5,118 nucleotides of DNA from positions 1 to 5,118 of the forward strand of contig CASEZU010000057.1 of assembly GCA_949292445.1 (NCBI GenBank), in the 5' to 3' direction. This document shows, piece by piece, positions 2,726 to 4,761 of the stretch (positions are counted from its first letter, which is position 1; every line of letters begins with the position of its first letter). The notes beneath the pieces are model-generated. The model was not told where the DNA came from and did not search any database. It saw nothing but the letters and a program-made list of their open reading frames with translations. The position numbers were made by a program, and so were the translations under genes. The stretch comes from an uncultured Spirochaetales bacterium (lineage in GTDB: Bacteria > Spirochaetota > Spirochaetia > Sphaerochaetales > Sphaerochaetaceae).

Positions 2726-2751
2726 GGAAATTAGCAGGACAGGGATGAAAG

Positions 2752-2785
2752 AAAAAAGGCTGACCGCACGAAGAGCAGCCAGCCT
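2752..2785 (-). terminator. Rho-independent terminator after the lipoprotein gene
   Basis: The minus strand reads AGGCTGGCTGC, a seven-base loop TCTTCGT, then GCGGTCAGCCT followed by TTTTTTC. The stem has 11 pairs, two of them G-U, so it is strong only in the RNA made from the minus strand. The hairpin begins 21 bases after the lipoprotein stop codon. It separates the lipoprotein transcript from the isomerase-kinase operon. Confidence 0.88.
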
Positions 2786-2806
2786 GAAAAGAACTGAATG
2801 AACGGC

Positions 2807-4681
2807 TCAGTTTACTGAAGAAGCCTTTGCACCTCCTACAGGATACCCGGTAGCAGGATCATAAAGCGTCACACTATACTGCCAGCACGCATTTCCAGCA
2901 GGAGCAACCGGCTCCATAACCTGCCCATTTGCGACAAACTCATGCAGATCATCAATTGTGACTGTCTTTGAACCGGCATTAGCGGGATCAGCGATATCAT
3001 CCACAGTTCTGAGTGTTCCCGCACTGCTTCCGTCGGGTTTCCTGTAGCTTCCATAGAATGATCTCTGGTAGACAGCAAGATATGTATCAGGAAGTTCAGC
3101 CCCATTTATAGAAGCATGGAGGACAACATTGCTGTTCTCATCCTCTGCTGCAGTCAGCACAAGCCCATCGACTCCGGTAGTATCGAGACGGCTTCCTGGC
3201 AGCTCTGTGACATTATCTTCAACATATTCGTTCACAGGCGTCCAGGCAGCACCCTGAGGATCAGTGTCGTTCCATGTGAACCATCCGGCGTTTCCATCGT
3301 ATCCTACGAACTTGCCGCTGTTCTTCATGCCGCTGACAACAAGCTGTATCCCGCCTTCCGCCGGAGTACCGCCCTCCCCGAGGATATAGCGGCTGACATA
3401 ATTGCCGCTGTTTCCGCCATTCGCGACGAGGAATCCGGCCTTCCCCATGATGAAATCACCATTATTGGTACAATCTTTGAATGTAAGCCTGCTGGTCTGC
3501 ATCCCGGAGCTTCCGCCCACAAGATACCCAAGGAAAGGAGCGGAGTATGCATTCATCGAGCCATACATGGAGGCATTGTTTGTACAGCTGCTGAACATTA
3601 TTTCATCAGCTTCACCATAGACGAGATAGAACCCCATATTGGTTCCGACATCTTCAGCGACACCGTAGACATCAACATTCTCAAAACCGATATATTCCGT
3701 ATCGAGGATGATACTGCCGCTGTCATCTACAAGTTCGTCACCATAAACAATGGCTTTTCCCCCGCGTGTATGGAAATCAAAGTTCCTGAACTCCGCATAT
3801 TTTCCAGTTGCCCTCACAACAAATGGAGGAGCGTCTTCTGCCTCATCGGTGATGGCGATGGAATGATTATCTCCATCGAGAACACCTGAGAACATATCAA
3901 TGTAGTCATTGGCACCTATTTCAATATCATCCCCGAGCCTGAAATAAGTAATTTCCTCCATTCTGTCAGCGCAGATACTGCTTATATTCAGGAACTGAGC
4001 AGCAGTGGATATCACATACGCTGTCTCCGGAGTCTTGCCATCTCCGCCGGATACAAGTCCATCAGCCTCGGCCTTTGACACCTCTTCACTTCCGATGACG
4101 AATGATCCGGAGATATCAGCAGACACTTTGCCGGAGGTTATCTGGGCAATGACAGGTTCAGCCCCCTCATTTACAGTTGCAGCTGCACTTTCAATGGTTC
4201 CCTGAAGCTCAGAAACGCTGACAGATGATGTCACATTGTCATATGTGATCCTGACATCCCCTTCTGTCTCAGCACTGTACCGCGTAATGGTTACGGATGT
4301 ATCAGCAAGAGTTCCCTCGAAGAAAATAACCATATCGCCATAAAGAACAGCTCCATTTCCTGCACGGTAACCGGAGAATGTCACATCCGCACGGATCGTG
4401 ACGGAAGCGGCTGCGAGAACAGAAGCCCGGGCTTTTGAAGAAGCATCGGCAACAGAGTATTTCACAGCAATGTTCTTTGCTTCCGGATCCGGTGACGTGA
4501 CATCGCTGATTATCTGCTTCATGGAAAACGCGCGGGATACAGCAGCGGCAGGAACCTCCTGATCAGGTTTCTGTCCTGGATACGGCAATATTCCTCCCGG
4601 AATACTCGGGCCATTATTACAAGCCACAAACGATACAAGCATAAGCAATATGCCCAGTGAAATCATGACAGTCTTCTTCAT
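2807..4681 (-). CDS. Predicted surface or periplasmic lipoprotein with beta-helix-like (GLUG-type) repeats
   Basis: A 624-residue exported protein of unknown function. Residues 1-20 form a type II signal peptide: MKK, a hydrophobic run, then SFVA before Cys21. Phe at -3 departs from the strict lipobox but fits the relaxed form of spirochaetes. Residues 22-45 are a Pro/Gly-rich tether. Residues about 50-205 are Ala/Ser/Thr/Val-rich and probably beta-stranded. From about 211 comes GGDGKTPETAYVISTAAQF, then FRLGDDIEIG and FSGVLDGDNHSI, the usual opening of right-handed beta-helix or GLUG-type surface domains. Three imperfect CTNN-type rungs follow (about 363-470). Residues about 504-617 may form a last beta-sandwich. 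No catalytic motif is recognised; adhesion or glycan contact is a guess. The start at 4681 is backed by the signal peptide and by GGAGG 12 bases upstream, a slightly long gap. It is monocistronic: its own promoter carries a G tract and a terminator follows. By eye it is less GC-rich than the sugar genes. Confidence 0.85.
   Translation of the reverse strand: MKKTVMISLGILLMLVSFVACNNGPSIPGGILPYPGQKPDQEVPAAAVSRAFSMKQIISDVTSPDPEAKNIAVKYSVADASSKARASVLAAASVTIRADVTFSGYRAGNGAVLYGDMVIFFEGTLADTSVTITRYSAETEGDVRITYDNVTSSVSVSELQGTIESAAATVNEGAEPVIAQITSGKVSADISGSFVIGSEEVSKAEADGLVSGGDGKTPETAYVISTAAQFLNISSICADRMEEITYFRLGDDIEIGANDYIDMFSGVLDGDNHSIAITDEAEDAPPFVVRATGKYAEFRNFDFHTRGGKAIVYGDELVDDSGSIILDTEYIGFENVDVYGVAEDVGTNMGFYLVYGEADEIMFSSCTNNASMYGSMNAYSAPFLGYLVGGSSGMQTSRLTFKDCTNNGDFIMGKAGFLVANGGNSGNYVSRYILGEGGTPAEGGIQLVVSGMKNSGKFVGYDGNAGWFTWNDTDPQGAAWTPVNEYVEDNVTELPGSRLDTTGVDGLVLTAAEDENSNVVLHASINGAELPDTYLAVYQRSFYGSYRKPDGSSAGTLRTVDDIADPANAGSKTVTIDDLHEFVANGQVMEPVAPAGNACWQYSVTLYDPATGYPVGGAKASSVN
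3272..3595 (-). repeat. Three imperfect beta-helix-like repeats inside the lipoprotein
   Basis: Protein-level repeats: FSSCTNNASMYG ending in APFLGYLVGG (residues about 363-390), FKDCTNNGDFIMGKAGFLVA (401-420) and SGMKNSGKFVGYDGNAGWF (450-468). The shared pattern is a Cys-Thr-Asn-Asn-Gly-like turn, a short strand, then Gly-x-Phe-Leu/Trp. This resembles the [N/K]NxGxV..AGGIVG rungs of bacterial surface beta-helices. Repeat identity is low at the DNA level, so recombination between them is not suggested. Confidence 0.6.
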
Positions 4682-4693
4682 ATCAGACGAAAA

Positions 4694-4698
4694 CCTCC
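4694..4698 (-). promoter_or_regulatory. Shine-Dalgarno site of the lipoprotein gene
   Basis: GGAGG on the minus strand, 12 bases before the ATG at 4681, longer than the usual 5-9. With the predicted promoter the transcript would begin at or next to this site, giving a leader of only about 17 bases. Confidence 0.55.
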
Positions 4699-4704
4699 GA
4701 GGGA

Positions 4705-4732
4705 ACTATACCCCCCCCCGGCTGTTTGTCAA
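4705..4732 (-). promoter_or_regulatory. Lipoprotein promoter with a G9 tract in its spacer (candidate phase-variable promoter)
   Basis: On the minus strand a perfect TTGACA -35 box (4727-4732) is followed, after 16 bases, by TATAGT (4705-4710, five of six consensus bases). The spacer is AACAGCC plus a G run that abuts the -10 box. Tract-length change would move the two boxes relative to each other: one more G gives the optimal 17 bases, one fewer gives 15. The same design is known for porA and opc of Neisseria meningitidis, and G-tract control is reported for tpr and other outer-membrane genes of Treponema pallidum. The promoter call is strong from sequence; phase variation itself is inference. 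Confidence 0.8.
4711..4719 (-). repeat. Homopolymeric G9 tract (C9 on the + strand)
   Basis: Nine uninterrupted Cs on the given strand, lying entirely between the -35 and -10 boxes of the lipoprotein promoter. No other homopolymer run of this length stands out in the window. Runs of this size are prone to slipped-strand mispairing, and also to sequencing error, so the exact count should be treated as provisional. Confidence 0.95.
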
Positions 4733-4735
4733 CAG
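4722..4735. repeat. Perfect 5-base inverted repeat over the lipoprotein -35 box
   Basis: CTGTT and AACAG flank TGTC on the + strand. The repeat is centred on the -35 hexamer of the minus-strand promoter, a position where a bound repressor would block RNA polymerase. The arms are short and a chance occurrence is quite possible; no regulator is encoded in the window. Confidence 0.3.
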
Positions 4736-4761
4736 AAATAGCCGCCTGGTCCCATTAACCA

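Follow-up and report, generated by a model that had tools for sequence, protein, structure and literature searches.

A G9 tract in the promoter spacer of a spirochaete lipoprotein gene: a recurrent promoter type and probable slipped-strand switch

The window, a stretch of 5,118 nucleotides from an uncultured Spirochaetales bacterium, carries on its minus strand a lipoprotein gene preceded by a promoter whose spacer ends in nine Gs. Neighbouring genes encode an L-fucose isomerase-like protein, an FGGY kinase (Pfam) and, divergently oriented, a protein with a signal-like N terminus. The features of the locus are listed below.

2757..2785, minus strand: terminator-like hairpin downstream of the lipoprotein gene (terminator scan)
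2807..4681, minus strand: lipoprotein gene, 624 aa, MKKTVMISLGILLMLVSFVAC, lipobox Cys21, no Pfam family (ORF; Pfam scan; protein and profile searches)
4694..4698, minus strand: GGAGG, probable ribosome binding site (read directly)
4705..4710, minus strand: -10 element TATAGT (read directly; promoter scan)
4711..4719, minus strand: G9 homopolymer tract (C9 on the plus strand), proposed slippage site (read directly; shuffles; recurrence in relatives)
4720..4726, minus strand: non-G part of the spacer, AACAGCC, 7 nt (read directly)
4727..4732, minus strand: -35 element TTGACA (read directly; promoter scan)
About 2733..4752, minus strand: segment comprising lipoprotein gene, promoter and terminator-like hairpin, with no homologous sequence at the corresponding position of the related genome G042 (locus alignment)

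The lipoprotein starts at an ATG at 4681, and its signal sequence ends in Cys21 of a lipobox read by eye, suggesting an envelope protein with putative exposure on the outer face. It gave no Pfam hit. A protein search with it returned 9 proteins at E <= 0.001, including the window's own, among the best 7998 candidates scored, and profile A1 of the lipoprotein matched two MAG contigs assigned to an uncultured Spirochaetaceae bacterium (in G001 and G002). No relatives of the protein were found in viral contigs or, by sequence, in the PDB. The family of G001 comprises 139 genomes, 17 of which have a relative of the window lipoprotein. Since the window isomerase is 87 to 93% identical to that of ten of these genomes, the window organism was placed near those ten genomes.

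Direct reading of the window confirmed the promoter described in the earlier note, namely, TTGACA, a 16-nt spacer ending in G9 and TATAGT upstream of the lipoprotein start, with the tract abutting the -10 element. This promoter ranked first among the promoter-like sites in a window scan, with 11 of 12 matches compared with 9 of 12 for the other eight; the total of 9 sites compares with a shuffle mean of 3.4. The G8-TANNNT element, GGGGGGGGTANNNT, occurred once in the window and in none of 200 dinucleotide shuffles. A start site about 7 nt past the -10 element would fall at or just before GGAGG, giving a very short leader, and the G9 tract would then lie upstream of the start site. In the terminator scan, positions 4697 to 4721, in the promoter region, could also be written as a terminator-like hairpin; because terminator-like sites number 4 in the window against a shuffle mean of 3.6, this reading was discounted as probably due to chance. 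An invertible promoter was rejected as well, as the sole inverted repeat between 4500 and 5118 has both arms within the neighbouring plus-strand gene. An Rfam scan of the window yielded no element at gathering score, and no plasmid match to the window was found.

Other poly-G spacer promoters, which the earlier note had proposed to look for, proved abundant. Across the 139 family genomes, the reversed form of GGGGGGGGTANNNT had 47 matches and GGGGGGGGTANNNT itself had 429, with at least one in 83 genomes, five or more in 30 and none in 56. When one such locus per genome was inspected, 11 of 30 were flagged as lying before a lipoprotein, one of them plainly wrongly; with no -35 element required, GGGGGGGGTANNNT also picks up runs inside genes. 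The pattern TTGACAN{3,12}GGGGGGGTATA was found in 8 of the 139 family genomes and, in an overlapping search across the phylum, in 19 of 392 genomes (27 matches), with no match to the reversed pattern in either set. By eye, 6 of the 10 newly found phylum loci that were inspected precede lipoproteins. In 12 related genomes, which were chosen for lipoprotein relatives or promoter matches, 131 sites fit TTGACN{9,21}GGGGGTANNNT (TTGAC-N-G5+-TANNNT) and 6 fit its reverse; the C-tract version gave 1 against 3. Each of the 12 genomes scanned has 6 to 14 poly-G spacer promoters, spread over many contigs and not confined to one gene cluster. If anything, the earlier note had understated its case. The window promoter looks like one of a genome-wide set of this kind, which the window's own genome would be expected to carry.

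The genes under these promoters were then classified with a lipobox rule, a regular expression of our own that was applied in the same way to the controls, with start codons chosen using a lipobox bonus. An earlier version of the rule had a background of 21 in 181 untagged ORFs of at least 200 aa, some of them antisense. After 9 of the 131 sites (G5 to G6) had been dropped, 112 of the 122 sites with G7 or longer in the 12 genomes were found to precede a lipoprotein, which supports the earlier claim that the tract lies in the promoter spacer of a lipoprotein gene. The remaining ten comprise eight sites cut by a contig end 22 to 91 nt past the -10 element, one missed by the rule, whose product has a signal ending in CTSC and resembles a lipoprotein, and one without a lipoprotein. 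That last site, L221 (contig C39 of G046), has all the parts of a typical poly-G promoter but no lipoprotein in the 1,900 nt downstream; a GGAGGATTTAATCCTCC hairpin follows it, and it looks like an orphan promoter. As a control, perfect TTGACA/TATAAT pairs, which are rare, were collected from six of these genomes, a set that is at most about twice the reversed count (16 versus 7) and of which many members are probably not promoters; one of the 16 is itself a poly-G site, and none of the 15 tract-free matches precedes a lipoprotein (Fisher P = 8e-14), with 5 of the 15 lacking an ORF. Among matches in viral contigs, 1 of 22 precedes a lipoprotein (P = 1e-16), and 5 of 22 lack an ORF.

A census of all runs of G8 or longer in three genomes identified 66 tracts, 31 of them before a lipoprotein start, and 25 of these 31 are preceded by TTGAC and run straight into TANNNT. 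Two further tracts with TTGAC and TANNNT were scored as lying within a frame that crosses the promoter, and the site-by-site analysis gives both to lipoproteins. After correction for these two, tracts inside reading frames number 21 of 66 and account for most of the remainder. A second class of G8 to G9 runs lies within reading frames, in roughly the first 80 nt or just past the signal-peptide region of envelope-like proteins (L001 at 7125 and 9394; L111, L118, L129, L132, L158 and L163), and is a candidate for translational phase variation.

The length of the tract and its effect on promoter spacing were examined across the set. Tract lengths at the 131 sites were G5 (4 sites), G6 (5), G7 (3), G8 (29), G9 (64), G10 (16), G11 (4) and G12 (6). 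Compensation between tract and non-G spacer length was tested for and rejected: the two show no correlation (rho = -0.05, P = 0.57, n = 122) and have additive variances, indicating that tract length is not tuned to keep the spacing constant. The spacers of the G7 or longer sites span 15 to 23 nt. Promoters of one genome were paired when the roughly 82 nt compared outside the tract carried no more than 3% substitutions. Of the 25 such pairs, 18 have tracts of unequal length and 5 differ by another indel, although many or most of them involve contig-end copies, mostly from G041, that could be one locus assembled twice. The mature DNA proves separate loci for 8 pairs; tract length is unequal in 7 of these, and another indel is present in 3. 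The members of one proven pair, in G041, match throughout 91 nt except for G8 versus G11. Looser pairs, with up to 10% substitutions, differ in tract length in 47 of 71 cases and have an indel elsewhere in the block in 45 of 71. Such length differences between near-identical promoters match the prediction for slippage, and assembly error could contribute, as draft assemblies can get homopolymer lengths wrong. The earlier note is supported to the extent that relatives share the design and differ in tract length between near-identical promoters; variation within a population, the window's own or that of any relative, remains a proposal.

Promoters with the arrangement mirrored, the tract being at the -35 end (TTGAC-G7 to G10-N-TANNNT), were also found in some genomes. 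Under a pattern allowing spacers of 10 to 20 nt, 12 of 13 have 15 to 17 nt. In 2 of the 13 a closer TANNNT, giving an 11-nt spacer, is available as well, and the longer spacer was taken; one promoter is counted twice, in G010 and in G017. Eleven of the 13 precede lipoproteins; the mirrored pattern had 15 matches versus 7 reversed, about twice its control. That the spacing stays similar whichever end of the spacer holds the tract favours an action through spacer length. An RNA element in the leader is disfavoured, given that the mirrored promoters keep their spacing and that the tract would be upstream of the expected start site. TATNNT promoters, the type found in the window, mostly have a spacing of 16 to 17 nt (17 of 31), and 19 nt is commonest in TAGNNT promoters (38 of 76), outside the usual 16 to 18. 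The 19-nt TAGNNT promoters of relatives often carry AACC or TACC ahead of the tract. The 19-nt peak could mean that the assembled consensus shows most TAGNNT copies in an OFF state, or that the effective spacing is altered by poly-G. The earlier prediction that G10, giving 17 nt, would be the stronger form agrees with the optimum described for tp0126 in the available text of PMC7864442, but is tentative for these promoters, many relatives having 19 nt.

Conservation of these promoters extends into the signal peptide. For TAGNNT promoters compared within the same genome (149 pairs, 11 genomes), mean identity is 0.84 from the -35 element to the tract, 0.74 in the leader and 0.73 in the signal-peptide DNA, falling to 0.20 in the mature protein, and it is 0.47 in the DNA upstream of the promoter (138 pairs). 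A set of 106 proteins falls into 68 clusters. Promoter and signal peptide are therefore conserved, while the mature parts are mostly without a close relative within the set. In G017 and G043, L143 and L208 encode lipoproteins that are 70% identical and have different promoters and signal peptides, a possible module swap. A Pfam scan was performed on 20 proteins, namely, 19 of the 90 complete poly-G-promoter lipoproteins plus P0007, and above the curated cut-off it found Pectate_lyase_5 in three, Big_3 in one and Flg_new in one. A putative adhesive domain was assigned to 3 of these 20 related or co-regulated proteins. The matches suggest adhesive or repeat surface domains, most of the proteins having no assignment.

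The window locus was compared with 15 isomerase loci of relatives. Only G062 has a syntenic lipoprotein homologue; it shares the window gene order, with an isomerase 93% identical and a divergent gene 84% identical, and its lipoprotein is only 35% identical. The earlier note had named a lack of conservation of the tract in orthologous promoters as grounds for refutation, and this applies in part: the tract is absent from the promoter of this homologue, which counts against the switch, and the promoter type recurs at other lipoproteins. Early in the coding sequence of the G062 lipoprotein (L006), at its 5' end, a G6 run coincides with a break in the reading frame, a possible translational switch. 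Also in G062, near 6192 of L309, TTGACAAATCACTACCGGGAGGGTG lies upstream of the isomerase and resembles the remnant of a poly-G promoter whose tract has been interrupted. In G042, the isomerase adjoins the divergent gene with no lipoprotein match, and homology to the window ends near 2732 and returns near 4753. Both flanking genes are present in G057, separated by another ORF and again with no lipoprotein match. At the remaining 12 isomerase loci no divergent gene was found, so that they say little on this point, and in G041 a different poly-G lipoprotein gene lies beside the isomerase. From this pattern of presence, absence and replacement, turnover of the lipoprotein beside the isomerase, by gain, loss or replacement, seems to be rapid.

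Three other explanations of the tract were weighed. Two-colour Illumina chemistry can yield false G runs, and many of the poly-G sites are near contig ends, as would be seen if the tracts were sequencing or assembly artefacts. Poly-G lipoprotein promoters at contig ends were noted in G041 (C54, C98), G043 (C6, C48), G046 (C35, C49), G064 (C36) and G074 (C44, C157). However, an artefact would not be expected to recur across 12 genomes in one position, flanked by TTGAC and TANNNT ahead of lipoproteins, at 131 sites versus 6 reversed, and we regard it as extremely improbable; the contig ends would be better explained by repeated promoter/signal-peptide blocks that break assemblies. Alternatively, the tract might be a fixed element of a lipoprotein regulon, acting as a stiff or unusual spacer or as a regulator site, with a length that drifts and no switching. 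The sharp mode at G9 and the tight 19-nt spacing in several genomes are consistent with this, as is a CRP homologue reported to bind poly-G tpr promoters in the accessible part of PMC7864442, where an opc-type mechanism is discussed. A fixed element nevertheless appears unlikely, in that tract length differs in all but one of the eight near-identical pairs at proven different loci, the spacers of G7 or longer sites vary without compensation by the non-G part, and the tract is found at either end of the spacer.

It is also possible, if doubtful, that the tract promoter and signal peptide constitute a recombination cassette for exchanging lipoprotein coding regions, with phase variation secondary or absent. 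This is suggested by the conservation of the -35/spacer region and signal-peptide DNA between a divergent upstream region and a divergent mature protein, by the 70% identical protein beneath different promoters in G043 and G017, and by the presence of the lipoprotein near the isomerase in some relatives and its absence in others. Such a cassette leaves unexplained why a G tract should lie within the spacer, at either end of it, and why its length should differ. Recombination of this kind and a slipped-strand switch are compatible.

The reading that we prefer is that the G9 tract, lying in the spacer of a sigma-70-type promoter, probably acts as a slipped-strand switch and that the window gene probably belongs to a dispersed lipoprotein repertoire. 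Gains and losses of G during replication would change the distance between the -35 and -10 elements and, in turn, the level of transcription of the surface lipoprotein gene. With many lipoprotein genes each under a tract promoter of its own, a population could show many surface combinations, and these might have an ecological role. The sequence comparisons show that the promoter architecture is real and recurrent, and it very probably belongs to a phase-variable repertoire of lipoproteins. On balance, we also lean towards the broader view that the uncultured spirochaetes of this family have a Vlp-like system of Treponema pallidum-like switches, in which interchangeable, dispersed lipoprotein genes generate combinatorial surface phases. 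Our guess is that these bacteria live in the gut.

If this is correct, a multi-locus phase-variable genome exists in bacteria that are not known as pathogens, in the phylum of T. pallidum. Why such genomes seem confined to pathogens is posed as an open question in the available text of a 2025 review, which gives database bias as one suggestion (PMC11868660). The draft genomes would offer a test case outside the classical pathogens that can be addressed with existing metagenome reads. They would also supply more than 100 natural promoter alleles, the 19-nt class included, from which the dependence of transcription on poly-G spacer length could be worked out. Among the open-licence PMC papers that our searches listed, we found no report of such a repertoire in uncultured spirochaetes, which is weak evidence of absence. 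Homopolymers have been counted in cultured treponemes (PMC8049484, whose section 6 makes no tie to lipoprotein promoters), and tracts within coding genes are treated in the part of PMC2831843 available.

The closest known switch is that of tp0126 in T. pallidum, an OmpW homologue gene with poly-G between the -35 and -10 elements that, in the text available, is transcribed best at a spacing of 17 nt (PMC7864442). It shares with the window gene the phylum, the poly-G promoter spacer and a surface-protein target, and we counted this precedent within the phylum in favour of the switch. The tp0126 product is an OmpW-type outer-membrane protein, whereas the window product is a lipoprotein. In addition, the tract here abuts the -10 element (the -35 in some relatives), and near-identical promoter/signal-peptide blocks occur in many genes. 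Poly-G in the promoters of a multigene outer-membrane family is likewise described for tprE, tprG, tprJ and tprL (PMC7864442). In the portion seen of that study, tprL has 7 to 11 Gs within T. pallidum isolates and 76% of 17 further poly-G tracts are clearly length-variable; however, the tprL tract covers part of the -10 element, and a porA-type spacing mechanism was ruled out. For porA of Neisseria meningitidis, as described in the same text (PMC7864442), poly-G lies between the -10 and -35 elements and the spacing sets transcription, a similar spacer in a single porin gene of an unrelated organism.

In organisation, the closest system appears to be Vlp of Mycoplasma hyorhinis, which resembles the relatives described here in that each lipoprotein gene has its own tract-bearing promoter, a conserved signal peptide and a divergent mature part. 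The Vlp tract is a promoter poly(A) beside the -10 element, and the genes form a single cluster with coding repeats. The accessible text of PMC12815946 describes a surface lipoprotein family with a common N-terminal signal and variable expression, and combinatorial lipoprotein phase variation is listed in that of PMC11868660. In contrast to Vlp, the tracts here are poly-G, the genes lie on many contigs and the mature proteins are mostly without close relatives in the set.
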